DNA of 64,000 bases from Sulfuricurvum sp. GTDB lineage: Bacteria; Campylobacterota; Campylobacteria; Campylobacterales; Sulfurimonadaceae. Location of the stretch: NCBI RefSeq assembly GCF_030691015.1, contig NZ_JAUYFF010000008.1, forward strand, positions 62,001-126,000, in the 5' to 3' direction. Position numbers and translations under genes: made by a program. Below, piece after piece: positions 34,894 to 49,567 of the stretch. How positions within the stretch are numbered: position 1 is the stretch's first letter; the number at the start of each line of letters is the position of its first letter. Below the pieces are notes generated by a model. The model had not been told where the DNA came from. It worked only from the letters and a program-made list of their open reading frames with translations, and did no database searches.

Positions 34894-34982
34894 AAAAATA
34901 TGCCCTACCTTCAAATTCTCTCTCGCTCTTAAACCATTGAGTGCTAAAACTTAAATTGAAAATTCAGATAAGGAGAGTTTTC

Positions 34983-35843
34983 ATGAAACGGATCATCAGT
35001 ATCTACACCGAACACAAAAATAGTATTCAATATTATCTCCGCAATACGATGGAAAATTTTCATCCCCTCTCAAACGATCCCAAAGATATGCGTCGTTTTT
35101 TCGAGTCTGAAAAGGCAGCCGAAGTTATCTACAGCGTCAATGAGGCATTTACACAATACACACCCAGTTTTGGGAGAAATTACATTGATGAAGAACGTAA
35201 CGGAACCGATAAATCTTTTTATTTCAAATGGGTCAGCTTTGCAGAAGAATCTATCCATATCAGCAACCCCTACCTCCATCATGTAACGGGACTCCCTACC
35301 CTTACAGCCGTCAAACGGGAGAATAATCACTATCTTATTGCCGATTTCGATATGCTAAAGCTTCTCGAAGAGCTTCGTCTGATCGAACACAACAGTGCGT
35401 ATGAGCAAATCAACCGATTGGTCATGGGTATCGGCGGATTATTACTGGGGCTTGTCTCTATCTTTTTAATCTTTTACGGTGCCTATATTTTTTATCATAT
35501 GCTCATCTCTCCCTATTCTGGGGAAGTGGTTATGCATGAGATCTTTACCTCCATTATTTCCATTACTATCGGTCTTGCCATCTATGATTTGGCCAAGACC
35601 CTTATTGAAAATGAGGTACTTTTCAAAACTTTTAATTACGGAAATGATCTTCAGAATAAAACGCTGAGTAAATTTTTGACCTCTATCATTATTGCCCTCT
35701 CTATTGAGTCATTAATGGCGGTATTCAAAATTGTACTGGATGATTACGGCAAACTGATCAATGCTTTTTATCTGATCATCGGAGTAACGTTGCTTATTGT
35801 CGGAACCGGAATTTATAACCACTTATCCCGCCAAAACAAATAA
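34983..35843 (+). CDS. Cache-like sensor protein with 4-TM C-terminal domain, copy 1
   Basis: A 286-residue protein. Residues 1-140 look like a PDC/Cache sensor core (FYFKWVSFAEESIHISNPYLHHVTG, then VKRENNHYLIADFDM). Four hydrophobic helices follow at about 150-175, 190-215, 235-255 and 262-283, with the motif AIYDLAKTLIE and SIIIALSIESLM. No kinase, GGDEF or chemotaxis output is present and there is no N-terminal membrane helix. A clear paralogue is encoded at 48.7-49.6 kb. ATG 34983 follows AAGGAGAG. I do not recognise a function; its place beside nor and a diguanylate cyclase suggests sensing. Confidence 0.7.
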   Translation: MKRIISIYTEHKNSIQYYLRNTMENFHPLSNDPKDMRRFFESEKAAEVIYSVNEAFTQYTPSFGRNYIDEERNGTDKSFYFKWVSFAEESIHISNPYLHHVTGLPTLTAVKRENNHYLIADFDMLKLLEELRLIEHNSAYEQINRLVMGIGGLLLGLVSIFLIFYGAYIFYHMLISPYSGEVVMHEIFTSIISITIGLAIYDLAKTLIENEVLFKTFNYGNDLQNKTLSKFLTSIIIALSIESLMAVFKIVLDDYGKLINAFYLIIGVTLLIVGTGIYNHLSRQNK

Positions 35844-35935: not shown

Positions 35936-37867
35936 ATGAAAGCGTTAAAAGATTTCCTTAGTGAATACTTTGCCAATAAGCGAATACAACAAACCCCTTA
36001 TTACCTTATTGCGCTCCTTTCATTTAATATGTTTGTTGTCGTCATGTTCACAATCATTCTCTTGTATAACCTCGGCTTTAACCGTCAAAAAGACCGCTTG
36101 CAAGAACTTGTCTCTACCCAAGCCGTTATGATTCATGTCGTGGCGCAACAAGAGTTTCTTCTCCACAAAAATCTCTCTAGCGAAATGAAAAAAAGAGTCG
36201 CCGAGGATATTATTCGAAAAGTATCACAAGCCCATTACGGATATGCGGGATTTGGAAAGACAGGAGAGTTTACCCTCGGAAAACGTGACGGCGACAAAAT
36301 TCAGTTTTTGATCAAACAGCGTCATTATAAAATGGAGAAACCGACTCCCGTACTCTGGAACTCTCATCTGGGTGAGCCTATGCGGCGGGCTTTACAAGGG
36401 GTTAAAGGGGTCGATGTCACCTACGATTATCGAGGAGCCGTCGTTCTGGCGGCCTATGTGCCGATAGAAGATATGAACTGGGGGTTAGTCGCAAAAATCG
36501 ATCTCGCTGAAATACGTGCTCCCTATATCGAAGCGGCGCAATACGCACTAGGATTGACGATTTTGTTAGCCTTGACCGGTAGTGTCATATTTTGGTATTT
36601 TCTCCATCCTTTAGTACAAAATATCGAAGATTCACGCCGCTTTAACCGCATTTTGATTGAAAATTCTTCTACCGGATTGGCTTTGTGCACCTTCAATGGG
36701 GAAATTATCGATGCCAATACCAGCTTTTTGGACATTATTGGTTTGAATGACGACGAAGCGAACCATCTCAATTATTTTGATCTGATCGCAGACGAACTCC
36801 GCGATCAAGAAAAAAAATATCTCAATACCCTTAAAAAAACCGGCTCTATCACCCCGTATGAAAGTATCTTTATCAATGTGTATCACGAGCGTATTTCTGT
36901 AAAAGTTGCGGGCAAGCTTATTTCGATGAAAGGATTATCCTATATCTGGCTGAGTGTCGACAATATTCAAGAGTATAAAATCAGAGAAGCGGAACTTCTA
37001 TTGTCCGATGCGGTATTCCACAATACTTCCGAAGTAATTTTTATAACGGATGCGTCTAAAAATATTATCAAAGTCAATGAAGCCTTTATCACTGTAACAG
37101 GATTTACGTTCGACGAGGTCGCGGGAAAAAATCCCAGAATTTTCAAATCGGGAAAACACGACTCTCAATTTTATGAAGAGATATTCCTTGAGGTCAACGC
37201 AACAGGTAAATGGCACGGCGAAATATGGAATAAACGAAAAAATGGAGAGATTTATCCCTCATTGCAAAGTATCTCGGCTATTCATGATGAAAATGGACAT
37301 CTCATACGCTATGTGGCGGTAATGAGTGACATTAGCCTCCAAAAAGCGTATGAGGAGCAACTGCTCATCGATTCCCATCATGATAGTTTGACAGGATTAC
37401 CGAACCGCCTCTTTTTCAATCAAATGCTAAGTCAGACACTGGCCAGATCGGAACGGGGAAATAAGACATTCGCCCTCTTTTTTATCGATCTCAATCAATT
37501 CAAAGAGGTCAACGATACCTACGGGCATGAATGCGGCGATAAGCTGTTAGAAGCCGTAGCGGAGAGATTGAAGGAAAATATACGGATTGATGACTTTGTA
37601 GCCCGCTTAGGGGGGGATGAATTTACCGTTATTTTTGAATCCATCCAACACCCTGCGGAAGCAATCACCGTTGCGAAAATCCTTATAGAGAAAGCAAAAC
37701 GACCTCTTATCGTTGATGAGTGCACTATCATCCCCTCCATCAGTATCGGCATTGCTTTTTACCCGGGACACGGCACAGATGGATCAACACTCCTCAAATG
37801 TGCCGACCAAGCGATGTATCATGCGAAGCATCAAACAAGCGAACATTACTTTATCTACGGTACATAA
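35936..37867 (+). CDS. Membrane diguanylate cyclase with Cache and PAS domains
   Basis: A 643-residue protein: TM1 near residues 25-45, a periplasmic Cache-type domain (about 50-195; AHYGYAGFGKTGE and AAYVPIEDMNWGLVAKID), TM2 near 200-222, two PAS domains (about 235-345 and 350-470) and a GGDEF domain (about 475-640) with RLGGDEF. No EAL domain follows, so it is a likely cyclic-di-GMP synthase. ATG follows AAAGGGC. The frame ends 9 bases before the convergent polymerase gene. Confidence 0.9.
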   Translation: MKALKDFLSEYFANKRIQQTPYYLIALLSFNMFVVVMFTIILLYNLGFNRQKDRLQELVSTQAVMIHVVAQQEFLLHKNLSSEMKKRVAEDIIRKVSQAHYGYAGFGKTGEFTLGKRDGDKIQFLIKQRHYKMEKPTPVLWNSHLGEPMRRALQGVKGVDVTYDYRGAVVLAAYVPIEDMNWGLVAKIDLAEIRAPYIEAAQYALGLTILLALTGSVIFWYFLHPLVQNIEDSRRFNRILIENSSTGLALCTFNGEIIDANTSFLDIIGLNDDEANHLNYFDLIADELRDQEKKYLNTLKKTGSITPYESIFINVYHERISVKVAGKLISMKGLSYIWLSVDNIQEYKIREAELLLSDAVFHNTSEVIFITDASKNIIKVNEAFITVTGFTFDEVAGKNPRIFKSGKHDSQFYEEIFLEVNATGKWHGEIWNKRKNGEIYPSLQSISAIHDENGHLIRYVAVMSDISLQKAYEEQLLIDSHHDSLTGLPNRLFFNQMLSQTLARSERGNKTFALFFIDLNQFKEVNDTYGHECGDKLLEAVAERLKENIRIDDFVARLGGDEFTVIFESIQHPAEAITVAKILIEKAKRPLIVDECTIIPSISIGIAFYPGHGTDGSTLLKCADQAMYHAKHQTSEHYFIYGT

Positions 37868-40620: not shown

Positions 40621-40911
40621 TTAGTATTTGATGCGAACCAATCCGTTTGGTGCAATGACTTTCATTTGACAAGCAAGACGGGCTTTTGGATTACTTTCGT
40701 TAAGCGTTTTAAGTACCGCTTTCTCTTTATCCGTTGTAGGGCTCATATACTCCATACCGGATTCAATCATTACGACACAAGTACCGCACTCACCGTCACG
40801 GCATCCGAACGGCAACGCACTTCCTGAAGCTTCAACGATATCTTGAATCGTTTTGCCCGGTATGACGTTGATCGCCAAAAAGTCATTCATAATTTCTACA
40901 CGTGTTGTCAT
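40621..40911 (-). CDS. Nif-associated 2Fe-2S ferredoxin
   Basis: A 96-residue plant-type ferredoxin with the cluster ligands C-x4-C-x2-C (FGCRDGECGTC) and a fourth Cys in ARLACQM about 40 residues later. Such ferredoxins in nif clusters can supply electrons to cofactor assembly or to nitrogenase reductase; here the position after nifW-nifZ suggests that, by context. It is separated from nifZ by about 90 bases that hold no obvious promoter, so it is probably the last gene of the operon. Confidence 0.88.
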   Translation of the reverse strand: MTTRVEIMNDFLAINVIPGKTIQDIVEASGSALPFGCRDGECGTCVVMIESGMEYMSPTTDKEKAVLKTLNESNPKARLACQMKVIAPNGLVRIKY

Positions 40912-41000
40912 CCCAACTCCTTTGTTGATTACGATTATTTAGCCGCGAGGGCACCAATTCCGCTTGATACGGTATGCAAAAATCTCAGAAGATGTTGATA

Positions 41001-41447
41001 TTACTCCCCCTCTTCTTGAGATTGCGCCGCTTTTTCAGCGGCTCGCTCAGCACGGTGTTCTTTGATCCATCGAAGCTCTTCGGCGACTTCGTCGTATCCG
41101 TCATCTTCGAGGGCACTCTCCAGTTCCGCTTCGCGGCATCCGAAGACCAGCCCCTCTTCAATAAAGTTCACTTCGTACACCCGTATCGTCTGTAAAAAAT
41201 CGCCGATGGCTCTCACATACCCCTCAGCTCCCGCTTCGACGAGAGTCTCACCGACCCCTGCATGAGGATAGGTTCCGTCATTGCGGATCGCTTTTGTGAG
41301 ACGAACCCGCTGACCGACCCGATACAAAGAGAGGATTTCGTCTTTGGTCGACATTTTATAAAGATTGGTTCGACGTGCCTCATCATTAATCGGCATCTCT
41401 TCTTCAGAAACTGATACTATGGTTTGTGGTACAGGCGTGGACTCCAT
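41001..41447 (-). CDS. nifZ: NifZ-domain nitrogen fixation protein
   Basis: A 148-residue protein with a central NifZ domain (about 40-115): VGQRVRLTKAIRNDGTYP, GETLVEAG, GYVRAIGDFLQ and FGCREAEL. NifZ helps maturation of the second P-cluster of MoFe protein. The ATG at 41447 has a near-perfect AGGAGGTGA site, so the 44-base overlap with nifW is probably real. Residues 1-40 and the acidic, Ala/Glu-rich C-terminus are not part of the domain. Confidence 0.88.
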   Translation of the reverse strand: MESTPVPQTIVSVSEEEMPINDEARRTNLYKMSTKDEILSLYRVGQRVRLTKAIRNDGTYPHAGVGETLVEAGAEGYVRAIGDFLQTIRVYEVNFIEEGLVFGCREAELESALEDDGYDEVAEELRWIKEHRAERAAEKAAQSQEEGE

Positions 41448-41778
41448 TACTCACCTCCTCTATAGTGCTACAGCTGCTCGATGTGGAACAGGTACCGCAA
41501 GCGCTGGGTTTATCAAACATCTCCCAGACATCCGCGGCTGAGGGGCTGTAGCCGTTTTCAAAATTTTTATAGACGGTGATAAGGGCAAATCGGTAATACT
41601 CGAGCAGTTTCTCGTCATTTCCGAAATCATGCCCCTTGGCTTTCTCTACCAATTCACCGAATTTTTTCATCATATGGAACCGTTTGACTTGAACCAAACG
41701 TTCATCATATTCAAGATCAAAAAAATCAAAGAAATCTTCCGTATCGCTTATTTGTTGAAATTCAGCTAACGTTCCCAT
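41404..41778 (-). CDS. nifW: Nitrogenase-stabilising protein NifW-like
   Basis: A 124-residue protein. The N-terminal ~85 residues show the NifW pattern: TEDFFDFFDLEYDERLVQVKRFHMMKKF. NifW associates with MoFe protein and protects or matures it. The last ~35 residues are an unusual Ser/Cys-rich tail (ACGTCSTSSSC and a later HAC) that overlaps the start of nifZ. ATG 41778 has AAGGAG upstream; the longer frame from 41835 runs into nifF. Confidence 0.8.
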   Translation of the reverse strand: MGTLAEFQQISDTEDFFDFFDLEYDERLVQVKRFHMMKKFGELVEKAKGHDFGNDEKLLEYYRFALITVYKNFENGYSPSAADVWEMFDKPSACGTCSTSSSCSTIEEVSNGVHACTTNHSISF

Positions 41779-41788
41779 AATAATCTCC

Positions 41789-42304
41789 TTATAATCCCAT
41801 CTCACTTTTGAGTTGGCTTGCCCATGTTTGGACACGTTCTTCGGTCAAATCTTTTTGGTTCACATCATCGATCCCGAGGCCGCAGAATTTTCCCTCACGT
41901 TCCGCCAGTGAAAATTCATAGTCGTATCCACTGGTCGGGATAAACCCGTGTGCTTCAGATCCGAGAGAGACAAACAGATCGTGCATTTTTCCCAATGCGC
42001 TCAAAAAGTGTTCGCCGTGCGTCTTTTGATCGCCCGCACCGAAAAATGCCACTTTTTTACCGCTCAAATCGGGACGTTCGTTATCCAGTTCATAGAGAGG
42101 ATCAACCCAGTCACGCTGTGGATCACCCTGCCCCCACGTAGAAGAACCGAGGATCAATACATCGTACTCCTCAAACTGATCGATCCCGTCAAAATCTTCT
42201 TCCATATCGATGAGTTCAGCACCTTTGATCTCATCTGCCAATAGTTCTGCCGCACCTCGTGTGACACCGCTGCTGCTACCGAAAAAAATTCCTACTTTTG
42301 CCAT
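41789..42304 (-). CDS. nifF: Flavodoxin NifF
   Basis: A 171-residue long-chain flavodoxin. The FMN phosphate loop is FGSSSGVTRGAAE (residues 8-20), the first ring-stacking loop STWGQGDPQRDW and the second GAGDQKTHGEHF with SGYDYEFS. It is a likely electron donor to nitrogenase reductase given its place between DUF269 and nifW. Spacing to its neighbours is about 10 bases on each side. Confidence 0.9.
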   Translation of the reverse strand: MAKVGIFFGSSSGVTRGAAELLADEIKGAELIDMEEDFDGIDQFEEYDVLILGSSTWGQGDPQRDWVDPLYELDNERPDLSGKKVAFFGAGDQKTHGEHFLSALGKMHDLFVSLGSEAHGFIPTSGYDYEFSLAEREGKFCGLGIDDVNQKDLTEERVQTWASQLKSEMGL

Positions 42305-42315
42305 CTTAAGACTCC

Positions 42316-42768
42316 TTATCCTTGTTTATTGCATGGTTTGTATTGTTCGTAAATCGCAATCGCATTAGAAAGATGTTTATCACCGTCTTCAAACAGTGCT
42401 TCGTATGTTCTAAAACCGAAGCGGTGTGCATCTTTAAAATACTTATCGACGATACAGATACGATCAGCGATGATGGCACATCGTCCGAACCCCTCATGAC
42501 TCATCTCCATGATGACATTGCACACGACACCCGTTTGTCGCTCAAACGCCAAAGCGATCGCTTTATAGATCATTTTGATATCGTTGGTGAGCATCTCATC
42601 AATGTCAGCGATCAAAGGGATAGATTTAAGATCCTCTTTGGTTTTGACATATTTTTTCATCAACAACTCTTCATCACTCGTTTTTGCCCAGTTACCGAAC
42701 TGATCGAGTGCACGGATTTGACGTATCAACTCCACTCCGAACGCATTCATTTTCTTTTCCGCTTCCAT
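42316..42768 (-). CDS. NifX-associated protein (DUF269)
   Basis: A 150-residue protein of the DUF269 family, recognised by LIRQIRALDQFGNW, a KYVKTKED segment and the GFGRCAIIADRICIVDKYFKDAHRFGF block. The family is found almost only next to nifX in nitrogen fixers; its exact function is unknown. Its ATG directly follows the nifX stop with a GAGGGAG site spanning the junction, so translation is coupled. Confidence 0.88.
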   Translation of the reverse strand: MEAEKKMNAFGVELIRQIRALDQFGNWAKTSDEELLMKKYVKTKEDLKSIPLIADIDEMLTNDIKMIYKAIALAFERQTGVVCNVIMEMSHEGFGRCAIIADRICIVDKYFKDAHRFGFRTYEALFEDGDKHLSNAIAIYEQYKPCNKQG

Positions 42769-43221
42769 TTATTCTCCCTCTGCCCATCGGTCTTGTCGCA
42801 CATCGTGCTCGGTCTGCATATGCATGATATTTTTAATCCATGGCGGAGGATTAGAGTTGATCATTTGCACTAAACTTTTGAGGACATCTTCGATCCGTGT
42901 AGACTCATTGGCCTTCATCGGATGGATTCCCGCTCGGATCACTTTTGCCGCTGCCGTTCCCCCGATACTCTCACTGTACATGATATTGACACCCTTGAGG
43001 GCACGGACACGATAATCGGTCTTGTCGTCATCTTCGGGAGCGATGCTGTCGGTTTTAATCACCTCGGAGAGTTCAAACCCCTCTTTGGAAACGTTGTAAA
43101 CGACGAACTCTTTCGCACCCCCGAAGTGGGCATTGATCTCTTCCATATCTTTGGTCGCAAAAGCAACTTTGATCGCGTTTTCCATTGTTTTATCCCCTTC
43201 GACTATGATTTTAGTGTTCAT
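42769..43221 (-). CDS. nifX: NifX FeMo-cofactor trafficking protein
   Basis: A 150-residue protein with the NifX/NafY cofactor-binding domain: KVAFATKDMEEINAHFGGAKEF, ALKGVNIMYSESIGGTAAAKVIRAGIHPMK. It carries NifB-co or a VK-cluster to NifEN during FeMo-co assembly. The ATG at 43221 overlaps nifN by 11 bases and has AGAAAGG upstream; ATG 43185 with GAAGGGG is an alternative. Confidence 0.9.
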   Translation of the reverse strand: MNTKIIVEGDKTMENAIKVAFATKDMEEINAHFGGAKEFVVYNVSKEGFELSEVIKTDSIAPEDDDKTDYRVRALKGVNIMYSESIGGTAAAKVIRAGIHPMKANESTRIEDVLKSLVQMINSNPPPWIKNIMHMQTEHDVRQDRWAEGE

Positions 43222-44509
43222 GTTTGACCTTTCTCAATGTGTTGGCTATCTCAAACAAAAAGTACGTACTACCTTCATACAGCTGATCGTTTTTGAGCTG
43301 GTTCCCTAACTCTTCATAGTTCGGGAATCCTCGGAGTACGAGCGCAGTATTCTCTACCGTATGCAAGATTCGTTCTGCATGGAAATTACTGATAACCATA
43401 TCCGCACGATCAAAGAAACGGCGTGCGTCTTCCAAATCCCCGACGAAAACATTTTCCGCTTCAATGGTGTGGAGAACGTCGCTAAACGTCGTCGATACCG
43501 CCGCAATGACAGTTCCCCCGACACTTCGCAAGAGTGCGCACATTCCGACAAGCATATCCGGCTCTCCCGTTACGACGAAATGGGACGTTCCGATAAGAAA
43601 ATGGCTGTCCAGCATCGCATCTTGCAGCCGTGAACGCCACCGTTTAATCATCGGTTTTGGCTCAGAGTGTCGTATTTTCATCAGTGCACTAACAAAATTG
43701 TCACACCCCTCCAATCCCATCAGATGATCGAAATGGAGATGCTCCATAGAGGGGTTCTTTTTTTGCAGAGCGAGTGCCGATTTTTTCATAGAAGCGCCGA
43801 TGGAAACCACGACACTGGACGTTGCTAAATCTCGGATTTGATCCACTGTGATTCCACCGTTGGCGAGTTTCCCCTGCCCCTCTTCCCAGTACCCGTCCAG
43901 TGACGTGGAGAGATCGGGGAGCGCATAAGTCTCAAATCCGAAATCCTCACAGAGAGCTTTGATCTTTTCCACCTCGATAGGCTGCATACTCAAATGGGGG
44001 AGAAAAACAAGTTTATTCGGTTTTGTCTCGGTCGCGGCCTCGGTGAGCTGTTCAATCATCGCCGTTACGGTCAACGCCCATCCGCTCTCCATCCCCCCCT
44101 CGTAATCGGGGGTATTGACAAATACATAGGGTATTTCGATGTGCATCCCCACACCCCGAACATCATCCCCTTTGGTCTCGGTGAGTCCCGTCGTATGCAA
44201 ACCGATCATGGAGGGTTTGAGATTTTTCTCTTTGTTCTGGATATTCTCTATCGCCATCAAAATCGAGTAATCCCCACCATCAAGCACGGCGGTGATGTCA
44301 CTCACGGAGGTGTTGTTGATCGCGATAGGTTCATTGAAATGGCGGGTAAAAAAGACCTTCGTAAACGAGGCACACCCTTGCGCCCCGTGCATAAGAGGGA
44401 TACAATCCTTGACCCCTAGAAATGCGAGGGTTGCTCCCATCGGTTGGGAGTGTTTGATCGGGTTGACTTGAAGCGGTTTGTGCTCTTTATGAGTGAGGGA
44501 GAATTCCAT
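43211..44509 (-). CDS. nifN: Nitrogenase cofactor scaffold subunit NifN
   Basis: A 432-residue NifN: PIKHSQPMGATLAFLGVKDCIPLMHGAQGCASF carries two of the P-cluster-like cysteine ligands (described here by position, about residues 20-50), then HFNEPIAINNTSVSD. With NifE it forms the scaffold on which FeMo-co is finished. ATG 44509 matches the family start; the longer frame begins with TTG. It heads nifN-nifX-DUF269-nifF-nifW-nifZ-fdx and has its own sigma-54-type promoter, because nifE is separated by an opposite-strand gene. Confidence 0.92.
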   Translation of the reverse strand: MEFSLTHKEHKPLQVNPIKHSQPMGATLAFLGVKDCIPLMHGAQGCASFTKVFFTRHFNEPIAINNTSVSDITAVLDGGDYSILMAIENIQNKEKNLKPSMIGLHTTGLTETKGDDVRGVGMHIEIPYVFVNTPDYEGGMESGWALTVTAMIEQLTEAATETKPNKLVFLPHLSMQPIEVEKIKALCEDFGFETYALPDLSTSLDGYWEEGQGKLANGGITVDQIRDLATSSVVVSIGASMKKSALALQKKNPSMEHLHFDHLMGLEGCDNFVSALMKIRHSEPKPMIKRWRSRLQDAMLDSHFLIGTSHFVVTGEPDMLVGMCALLRSVGGTVIAAVSTTFSDVLHTIEAENVFVGDLEDARRFFDRADMVISNFHAERILHTVENTALVLRGFPNYEELGNQLKNDQLYEGSTYFLFEIANTLRKVKHEH

Positions 44510-44521
44510 AACAACTCTTTC

Positions 44522-44538
44522 TGCCTCATAATGAGGCA
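44522..44538. promoter_or_regulatory. Perfect palindrome in the nifN leader
   Basis: TGCCTCAT and ATGAGGCA form an exact 8-bp inverted repeat around a single A, 13 bases upstream of the nifN start. A second hairpin-prone region (CCAATCGGGGC-TTA-GCTCCGATGG) lies about 25 bases further upstream in the same leader. The palindrome is too tight for a good RNA hairpin and looks more like an operator; no regulator can be named. Confidence 0.45.
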
Positions 44539-44608
44539 AGCTTTAGTGCCATAGCGGCCAGCGTAGCCAATCGGGGCTTAGCTCCGATGGCGTTTAAAAC
44601 AATCGTAT

Positions 44609-44624
44609 TGCAAGAAGCGTGCGA
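44609..44624 (-). promoter_or_regulatory. nifN: Sigma-54-type promoter of nifN
   Basis: On the minus strand TCGCACG-CTTC-TTGCA matches the -24/-12 consensus TGGCACG-N4-TTGCA except for one base. An 18-base stretch including it, GCAAGAAGCGTGCGAGAT on the plus strand, recurs exactly upstream of nifE. The predicted start is near 44598, giving an approximately 90-base leader. Confidence 0.82.
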
Positions 44625-44693
44625 GATCACCTCTTATCCCATTAACCCTATCGGAGTACAATCCTCCTCTATATTCATCTCAGGAAAAATACT

Positions 44694-45284
44694 ATGAAAC
44701 ACGTTCTGCTCCTCAACCTCCACCAAAAATACGAAGGATTCGCCAACGGCAATCTAACCCACGATCTCCTCAATGAGGCAAAAAAGTTTTTTACCGCAAA
44801 CGGCTATGACGTACGTGAAACATCGATTGAAGAAGGATACGATGTTGCCGAAGAGCTTGAAAAGTTCAAATGGGCCGATATTTTCTTCGTACAGTCTCCT
44901 GTTTACTGGATGGGACTTCCGTGGCTGGCAAAAAAATATGTCGATGAAGTATTCACGGGCGGAAACAACACCGTCACCTATGTCAGCGACGGGCGGAGCC
45001 GTGAGGATGAGTCCAAAAAATACGGTAGCGGCGGATTGATGCAGGATAAAAAATATATGCTCAGTTTTACTTACAACTGCCCGACAAGCGAATTTAATAA
45101 TCCGGAGGGGTTTTTCGAGGGGATGAGTGTCGATCAGGCGAACATCGCTCTGCACAAACTTTTCCAGTTTTGCGGTGCACAGCCACTACAAAGCTACTCC
45201 GTCCATGACGTCTACAAATCGGATTTCAACCTCGAGGATTCCCTCAAAGAACTGAACCAAACGTTAGCAAAAAATTTCGCCTAA
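44694..45284 (+). CDS. MdaB-like NAD(P)H:quinone oxidoreductase
   Basis: A 196-residue flavodoxin-fold protein of the NAD(P)H dehydrogenase (quinone)/MdaB family: KWADIFFVQSPVYWMGLPWLAKKYVDEVFT and KKYMLSFTYNCPTSEFN are typical. It makes two-electron reductions of quinones and protects against oxidative damage; in Helicobacter it supports oxygen tolerance. It sits in opposite orientation between nifN and nifE and overlaps the nifE end by 4 bases. ATG follows CAGGAAA; a TACAAT (44657-44662) may be its -10. Confidence 0.87.
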   Translation: MKHVLLLNLHQKYEGFANGNLTHDLLNEAKKFFTANGYDVRETSIEEGYDVAEELEKFKWADIFFVQSPVYWMGLPWLAKKYVDEVFTGGNNTVTYVSDGRSREDESKKYGSGGLMQDKKYMLSFTYNCPTSEFNNPEGFFEGMSVDQANIALHKLFQFCGAQPLQSYSVHDVYKSDFNLEDSLKELNQTLAKNFA

Positions 45285-46642
45285 TTCACTTCCCACGGTG
45301 CGGGTTTTCCGACATTGGCAAATACGGGATTACGAAGTGCGTATTTCAAATCTTCGGCGAGATTTAGGAGTCCGCCGTATCCGCCGTAGCTCGTTTTTTT
45401 CTCTTGATTGACATCGATAAAAGAGATTTTTTTCTTGATCGCGGTGTAGAGACTTCGCCCCCCCGCGAGGAGGATATGCGCACCTGTAGAGTCGATAATT
45501 TTTCCCTGCTCGGCAGCGGGCTTCGTCATTAAAACGCCGTTTTCACCTAAATATTCTCGCGCTTTGTCGATGTCGTCTTGGGTCGATTTGGCGATACTCG
45601 TGGCGACCACTTCAATCCCTAAATCCTGTAATCCTGAAGCAATCGACCACGCTTTATTTCCTCCCGTGTTGAGCACCGCTTTTTTACCCGCGAAAAGAGC
45701 TTTATACGGGGCGATTTTTTCTTCCAACGCCGCCTCTTCCTCCGCAATCACCACCTCGGCACGCTCTATCAGTGCAGGATCTCCCAACGCGCTCACAATT
45801 TCGCGGATCGCGAACGTCGTATCGCGCTTACCGTAAAACGAGACCGAAATCCACGGAATACCGTACTGCTCTTGCATCTTGCGGGTCAAGGTGATGAGCG
45901 ATTTAGCACACACGATGACGTTGAGTTTGGCACGGTGGGCGGTGCGGATATCCCCAACCCGACCATCACCGCTCATCGAACTCAGTACTCGAAGTCCGAT
46001 CTTCTCGAAGATAGGAAGATACTGCCACATATCCCCCGTGACGTTGTAATCGCCGATCAGGTTGATATCATAGGGTGTAGTGAATTCAGGCTCTTTGGTG
46101 CCGATGAGATGCTCTAACACCGCTTCTCCCGCGAGACGTGAACCGAGGTTTTTACTCCCCACAAATCCTGCGGCATGGACGGGGACGATCGGAATGGCGT
46201 GTTTTTCAGACGCTTTCTTACAGGTCATATCGATATCATCCCCCACCAACGCCGTCACGCAGGTCGAATAGACGAAAATTGCTTCGGGACGGTAGTTCTC
46301 CATAATGTAGTCAATCGACGCGTCCAGCCGTTTATCCCCGCCGAAGATGACATCATTAGTATTTATCCCCGTCGTAAACCCCATCTGAGTATGATCACGT
46401 CCCGTGTAGGACGTTTTTGTCTCACGGGTCTCCCATGACGCCCCCAAACACGTTTGAGGGCCGTGAACGAGATGTACGGCATCGGCGTAGGGGAAAAGGG
46501 AGATTTGGGCACCGTCAAAGGCACATCCCCCCGCCGCAAGTCCCGGTTTGGGCTTATCGCATCCCTCTCCCGGTTTTTTGTCTTTGCTGTGAGAACATGC
46601 GCTCTCGTTCATGAGTTCTTTGATTTTTGCGCGGCTGACCAT
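45281..46642 (-). CDS. nifE: Nitrogenase cofactor scaffold subunit NifE
   Basis: A 453-residue NifE with GGCAFDGAQISLFPYADAVHLVHGP, then CLGASWETRET and STCVTALVGDDI, covering the conserved cluster-ligand cysteines near residues 40, 64 and 125. It forms the NifEN scaffold with NifN for FeMo-co synthesis. ATG 46642 follows TAGGAGT. The gene is transcribed alone from a sigma-54-type promoter at 46676-46691, an arrangement caused by the mdaB-like gene downstream. Confidence 0.94.
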   Translation of the reverse strand: MVSRAKIKELMNESACSHSKDKKPGEGCDKPKPGLAAGGCAFDGAQISLFPYADAVHLVHGPQTCLGASWETRETKTSYTGRDHTQMGFTTGINTNDVIFGGDKRLDASIDYIMENYRPEAIFVYSTCVTALVGDDIDMTCKKASEKHAIPIVPVHAAGFVGSKNLGSRLAGEAVLEHLIGTKEPEFTTPYDINLIGDYNVTGDMWQYLPIFEKIGLRVLSSMSGDGRVGDIRTAHRAKLNVIVCAKSLITLTRKMQEQYGIPWISVSFYGKRDTTFAIREIVSALGDPALIERAEVVIAEEEAALEEKIAPYKALFAGKKAVLNTGGNKAWSIASGLQDLGIEVVATSIAKSTQDDIDKAREYLGENGVLMTKPAAEQGKIIDSTGAHILLAGGRSLYTAIKKKISFIDVNQEKKTSYGGYGGLLNLAEDLKYALRNPVFANVGKPAPWEVN

Positions 46643-48704: not shown

Positions 48705-49567
48705 ATAAGGGATTTATTTTTATGGCTGACATAATTTAATACTGCCATAGAGATGATCAAAATACCGACTCCGCTAATCAGATAAAAGGCAAAATGCATA
48801 TTAGTGATATCGTTGATAGCGACTTTAAAGACGACCATCAGCGATTCGATCGAGAGGGCGATAATGATAGAGGTCAAAAACTTCGTCAGGGTTTTGTATT
48901 CGTTACCTTCTTCGAGGGTTAGGGAGCGGTAGAATACCTCCTGCTCCAAGATCGTTTTTGCCAAATCGTAAATTGCTATTGCGAGGGTAATACCGATGAT
49001 CGATTTAAAGACATACTGGAGCGTTTCATCACCGGAACTCATAAGTGCTTTGACAAATCCAAGCAACCCATACCCGCCCAAAAACAGTGAAAGCAATACC
49101 AACCCTCCCCCTAGCAAGCCGTAAACCCATACGGAGAGTTTAGAGATGAGACGAGTACTCTCGATAAGGTGCATTTTCCCCAATACCGCAACAAGATCAA
49201 GATCAAATACGGCGATTTTGCCATCGGAGTATTTGCGAGCGACCGAGACTTTCGGCTGACCGCTATTGGCACAGATGTAGGGGTTTGAGATGTAGTTGCC
49301 TTTATCATCAAACTGGATACGGTTGATGAAATAGGCTCTATCGGTACCTTTTAAACTCATATCATGGCCGCTTCTGCGCCATGTCGGGGTGATCTGTTCC
49401 CCTTTTTCATCCATCAGATACATATCGGTGAGACAGGGGAGCCGTTTAAAAAATTGTTTCACTTGCTCATCATCGAAATCGTGATGAGGATTATCGCTGA
49501 TCGTACTCAGTAAAAAACCCTCTACCGATTCACGGTTTTCACGGTATATCTGCATCATTTGTTTCAT
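48701..49567 (-). CDS. Cache-like sensor protein with 4-TM C-terminal domain, copy 2
   Basis: A 288-residue paralogue of the protein at 34983-35843. The sensor part (about 1-140) is a clearer PDC/Cache domain: LTDMYLMDEKGEQITPT, GTDRAYFINR, NYISNPYICANSG, then VARKYSDGKIAVFDLDL. The C-terminal four helices share AIYDLAKTILEQEV and TKFLTSIIIALSIESLM with copy 1. No output domain or N-terminal membrane helix is seen. Its stop overlaps the Host_attach gene by 4 bases on the opposite strand. Function unknown. Confidence 0.72.
   Translation of the reverse strand: MKQMMQIYRENRESVEGFLLSTISDNPHHDFDDEQVKQFFKRLPCLTDMYLMDEKGEQITPTWRRSGHDMSLKGTDRAYFINRIQFDDKGNYISNPYICANSGQPKVSVARKYSDGKIAVFDLDLVAVLGKMHLIESTRLISKLSVWVYGLLGGGLVLLSLFLGGYGLLGFVKALMSSGDETLQYVFKSIIGITLAIAIYDLAKTILEQEVFYRSLTLEEGNEYKTLTKFLTSIIIALSIESLMVVFKVAINDITNMHFAFYLISGVGILIISMAVLNYVSHKNKSLI

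Follow-up and report, generated by a model that had tools for sequence, protein, structure and literature searches.

How a sensor protein would act when no output module is attached to it is the question raised by a gene found in a 64,000-nucleotide stretch of a Sulfuricurvum sp. genome (contig NZ_JAUYFF010000008.1, hereafter the window). Prokaryotes are described as relying mainly on Cache domains for extracellular sensing; the original prediction for this locus was a two-copy membrane family in which a Cache-like sensor precedes four transmembrane (TM) helices, with both the N-terminal membrane helix and any output missing. The analysis described here suggests that the membrane domain itself is probably the effector, with the Cache domain serving as its cytosolic input.

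The two genes (Table 1) are both real and, as predicted, share their layout and motifs: the encoded proteins align end to end (36% identity, 61% similarity, E 2e-52), and AIYDLAKT (residues 199-206) and SIIIALSIESLM (residues 234-245) are the same in both. The ATG at 34983 is the right start of copy 1 because it is preceded by AAGGAG (34970-34975) and orthologs begin at the same place; a mechanically called GTG start at 34941 was rejected on these grounds. The hydrophobicity profiles of both copies contain about four hydrophobic helices, all located after residue ~146. Scans of both copies with the Pfam and NCBIfam models produced no domain at its cut-off and, therefore, neither protein carries an attached kinase, GGDEF or MCP part, so that the reported lack of the N-terminal helix and of the output holds for both. 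Elsewhere in the window, positions 40621-46642 resemble a nitrogen-fixation cluster (nifE/nifN-like genes, flavodoxin, ferredoxin), an assessment based solely on visual inspection of the translations.

Table 1. Coordinates of the Cache-4TM genes, their domains, and the neighboring and compared genes (positions in the window unless a locus is given)
Feature	Position	Strand	Basis
Copy 1, Cache-4TM protein, 286 aa	34983..35843	+	start matches orthologs; AAGGAG 7 bases upstream
Copy 1, N-terminal amphipathic helices and Cache domain, residues 1-135, predicted cytosolic	34983..35387	+	AF2 model, VIA, profile matches
Copy 1, four-helix membrane domain, residues 138-284; conserved D202, K205, E209, E242, K249	35394..35834	+	
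Copy 2, paralog, 288 aa	48701..49567	-	
Copy 2, Cache part, residues 1-135	49163..49567	-	alignment
Copy 2, four-helix membrane domain	48716..49156	-	alignment
Membrane PAS-PAS-GGDEF protein, neighbor of copy 1	35936..37867	+	Pfam
Protoglobin-PsiE	L159:1492-2388	-	
Protoglobin-PsiE	L160:955-1857	+	
Protoglobin-PsiE	L161, L162, L163		

As originally proposed, the sensor in the N-terminal part belongs to the Cache superfamily. The AF2 model of copy 1 (mean pLDDT 79) adopts a Cache/PAS-like fold with a long N-terminal helix, and Foldseek comparison of this model with solved structures identified YkuI, an EAL c-di-GMP protein, as the best match (E 8.5e-5). The same match was the strongest in the VIA comparison (Z 14.4, rmsd 2.9 over 128 residues, spanning residues 6-134), followed by the next different protein at Z 11.8 and by many Cache domains at Z 9-12. 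Comparison of the family profile with the PDB retrieved Cache structures at E 1e-8, including McpA (7w0w), KinD, and YkuI; in the profile alignment with the latter, the positions Y..DE..Q.T, S..Y..TG and D are kept. In Pfam scans, a member from Acidithiobacillus caldus scores above the dCache_1 cut-off (45.9 bits), a few other relatives produce weak matches to dCache_1 and MCP-like_PDC_1, and the window copies produce none; at E 0.01, none of 77 members matched the YkuI_C model, even though YkuI tops the structural comparisons.

The affinity with YkuI bears on the side of the membrane that the sensor occupies. YkuI_C is one of the two Cache families reported to be mainly intracellular (Upadhyay et al., PMC4822843). 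In nearly all of the more than 100 members, there is no hydrophobic helix before residue ~146, and the mean net charge is positive just before TM1 (+1.3) and at the C-end (+1.7), and negative in loop 1 (-0.9) and loop 3 (-1.2); the free-standing and gammaproteobacterial forms described below also have acidic loops 1 and 3. Because of this charge pattern and the lack of an early helix, the topology is likely N-in/C-in, with the Cache domain facing the cytoplasm. The absence of the N-terminal helix, which looked like an oddity under the assumption of an extracellular Cache domain, is thus explained by the predicted cytosolic location. The charge bias is modest, and the prediction is somewhat weakened by the TM2-TM3 loop (loop 2), which is net negative in Campylobacterota rather than basic, and by the net negative C-end of the free-standing form.

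Two copies turned out to be too low a count: the source genome encodes four paralogs, the two in the window, L003 (contig C8), and L004 (contig C3), the last of which belongs to a second, deeply separated subfamily. In a quick phylogenetic tree, the window copies fall into separate, supported groups, each with orthologs elsewhere (80% and 84% best identity), and hence are old paralogs rather than products of a recent duplication. A profile search with a four-row alignment detected the family in 242 of the 298 sampled Campylobacterota genomes, representing 52 of the 58 genera. Additional members come from Sulfuricurvum, Sulfurimonas, Sulfurovum, and relatives of Arcobacter, along with the Gammaproteobacteria Thiomicrorhabdus and Hydrogenovibrio. 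One member is named 'PDC sensor domain-containing protein' by NCBI, that is, the sensor half has already been recognized; for the membrane half, there appears to be no earlier description, and a literature search found no paper naming the Cache-4TM family.

A profile of the membrane part matched 117 of the 150 Campylobacterota genomes searched, nearly always within frames of ~280-360 residues; in the longest exception, a 431-residue frame in G060 (L017), the start lies upstream of that seen in other members, probably through an artefact of start-site calling. Judged by frame length, none of the 117 genomes with a match contains a fused output domain, and none was seen in the gammaproteobacterial proteins that were read. 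A likely pseudogene at G084:C1:287384-287674 retains a decayed membrane domain in which four stops occur in frame. The absence of an output domain is what one would expect of a degenerate receptor that has lost its function and persists as a passive remnant. This explanation is highly improbable, being contradicted by the wide retention of the family in Campylobacterota along with its strong conservation, and by the finding of a single clear pseudogene-like match.

The search for the membrane domain yielded a form that lacks the sensor altogether. In plasmid records, the domain was found alone, for example, in Azospirillum sp. B510 (WP_012978319.1, 88.7 bits), and free-standing proteins of 155-197 aa are encoded in Alphaproteobacteria (Azospirillum, 182 residues; Phyllobacterium, 170; Methylocystis, 178) and in several Gammaproteobacteria. 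In the class to which Thiomicrorhabdus belongs, the domain occurs in 33 of the 274 sampled genomes, in some alone and in some combined with Cache. The Methylocystis plasmid gene L185:1581-2117, a free-standing 4TM domain (87 bits), is labelled 'GNAT family acetyltransferase', which is probably a mis-annotation.

The membrane part is also the better conserved half of the protein. Across 77 aligned members, the mean pairwise identity is 32% in the Cache part and 46% in the membrane part, reaching 62% in TM2 and 72% in TM3. F188, T195, A199, D202, L203, F231, I235, A238, I241, E242, L244, F248, and K249 are invariant in all 77 sequences, K205 is kept in 76, and the 16 gammaproteobacterial Cache-4TM proteins retain the invariant residues at the positions checked. 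In the free-standing form, A199, F231, E242, and L244 are kept, and T195, K205, and K249 are relaxed. Given this conservation and the existence of the domain without a sensor, the membrane domain is more likely the working part of the protein than a tether, with the caveat that strong conservation of the TM2-TM3 hairpin can also reflect a protein interface.

A match of the C-terminal part to a characterized domain, the observation that would have refuted the original prediction, was looked for and not found: in Pfam, no form of the membrane domain produced a match above the cut-off, nor is there an NCBIfam family for it. When the 4TM domain was compared by itself with known folds, the matches were helix bundles such as BAR domains and GPCRs, all of them within the range that the tool flags as noise; the lack of a match in this search proves nothing. 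Several candidate identities were considered and dropped. The helix order and the K/R-12-E/R spacing are similar to those of PsiE, but hhalign does not support kinship (probability 5%, with P 0.0076 against 0.088 for the reversed control; 1.6% when the alignment was broadened), and a search with the PsiE model (PF06146) gave no match in genome G000. Matches to DUF2975 (PF11188) were weak, with two of 21 members (best E 1.9e-5) and one of 77 (E 0.0047), and were lacking in G000 and in 60 other genomes; DUF4271 and DUF4870 matched few members, also weakly.

Taken as a whole, the anatomy of the Cache-4TM proteins is well supported; we infer the cytosolic location of the sensor, the direction of signaling, and the active, rather than only anchoring, role of the membrane domain. 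At about even confidence, we propose a two-part receptor, with a cytosolic YkuI-type Cache domain as the input and the four-helix membrane domain as the effector. The Cache domain would recognize either a partner protein or a small molecule present in the cell, and its state would be passed through the long helix of residues 138-175 into the membrane domain, the putative effector itself. The TM2-TM3 hairpin would form the core of the effector, its conserved charges being predicted to extend from D202, K205, E209, E211, and K/R230 near the cytoplasm through the mid-membrane E242 to K249 at the outer side. Such an effector might move an ion or a proton, or else serve as a docking site for a diguanylate cyclase, a chemoreceptor or another partner in the membrane. 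Sensing would, under this model, be reversed relative to the common scheme, with an intracellular Cache domain signaling toward the membrane rather than away from it. A bolder version, which we regard as rather unlikely, posits a new class of ligand-gated membrane effectors, channels or transporters with four helices per subunit that are gated by Cache from the cytoplasm, the membrane domain being an ancient unit to which sensors (Cache and, in parallel, globin on PsiE) were added. Because the 4TM part resembles only generic helix bundles, there is no positive sign of a channel or transporter, and the ion channel regulator suggested in the original prediction is likewise only a possible role.

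The same conservation pattern might be read in the opposite direction, with the membrane part sensing membrane potential, quinone, lipid or pH, and the cytosolic Cache domain serving as a mere dimerization platform that reports inward. The invariant charged residues within TM2 and TM3 and the existence of the 4TM part without Cache fit this scenario, but Y50, Y97, and D121 of the Cache domain are invariant in 77 of the 77 sequences as well, and there is no downstream domain to take the report; we consider it distinctly improbable.

A third possibility, suggested by the gene neighborhoods, is a membrane-tethered adaptor in which the 4TM domain docks a separate GGDEF, EAL or chemoreceptor protein and the Cache domain modulates this partner, so that the output would be provided in trans and relate to c-di-GMP or motility. 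The PAS-PAS-GGDEF gene, a possible partner, starts 92 bases downstream of copy 1 on the same strand; GGDEF/EAL neighbors recur in orthologs, and copy-1 orthologs are often adjacent, in varied arrangements, to genes for GGDEF, HD-GYP, MCP, CheB, CheR or FliK. The gene lies close to, or directly beside, one for an EAL protein in several genomes of Thiomicrorhabdus and Hydrogenovibrio, and an MCP gene is often found between the two or adjoining them; when three such genomes were searched with the Cache profile, the C-terminal Cache domain of the EAL protein was the only other match (E about 3e-7), and one such EAL protein aligned with YkuI across both EAL and Cache. The gene for the L004 paralog overlaps hisH, and hisA, cheY, and prmA come next (L156:3995-7506 and orthologs; hisH and hisA were named by eye from sequence), with ftsH next after prmA in many of these loci, a recurring gene order in Campylobacterota. 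Matches to signaling-gene seeds were found for 35 of the 292 neighbors within two positions of the family genes compared with 20 of the 434 farther out (p 3e-4, an optimistic value given that several seeds were chosen from the neighbors themselves and that the loci share ancestry), an enrichment to be taken as a lead, not proof. Many members, however, adjoin unrelated genes, including nitrate/molybdate ABC transporters, Amt/PII, and SHMT, and the free-standing 4TM proteins lack the sensor. On balance, the adaptor is a possible explanation that we entertain only tentatively. A role in nitrogen metabolism, considered in view of the nrtABC, modABC, Amt/PII, and norCB/NnrS neighbors, was dropped because these are too scattered among other contexts.

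Thiomicrorhabdus/Hydrogenovibrio EAL proteins with a C-terminal YkuI-like Cache domain are encoded at L092:4610-5866, L098:1994-3253, and L114:4577-5827; a Pfam scan of the L092 protein reported no Cache model.

The preferred reading, a Cache input coupled to a membrane effector, concerns a domain that has no Pfam or NCBIfam model and yet is carried by most Campylobacterota, often in several copies; with a defined domain boundary, invariant residues, and a form that lacks the sensor, it lends itself to direct tests of function.

Among the known systems, the Bacillus subtilis YkuI (EAL with the YkuI_C Cache; PDB 2bas, 2w27) shares the Cache fold, and its Cache domain is intracellular, the location predicted for the Cache-4TM sensor, but it is a soluble protein that carries EAL at its N-terminus, whereas in Cache-4TM proteins the N-terminal Cache is followed by four membrane helices and EAL is absent. 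The extracellular dCache/sCache receptors (McpA, KinD, PctA, Tlp3) contain homologous Cache domains, each framed by two membrane helices and linked to a chemotaxis or kinase module; the Cache-4TM proteins share neither feature. The Azospirillum protein WP_012978319.1 has the same membrane domain, with E242, F231, A199, and L244 kept and T195, K205, and K249 relaxed, and no Cache domain. A parallel in architecture comes from ~300-residue proteins of sister Campylobacterota genomes, in which protoglobin (PF11563, 93-96 bits) precedes PsiE (PF06146, 79-81 bits), apparently a cytosolic heme sensor coupled to PsiE. Like the Cache-4TM proteins, these combine a cytosolic-type sensor with a four-helix membrane domain in about 300 aa, with no output; the sensor in this case is a globin and the membrane domain is PsiE.
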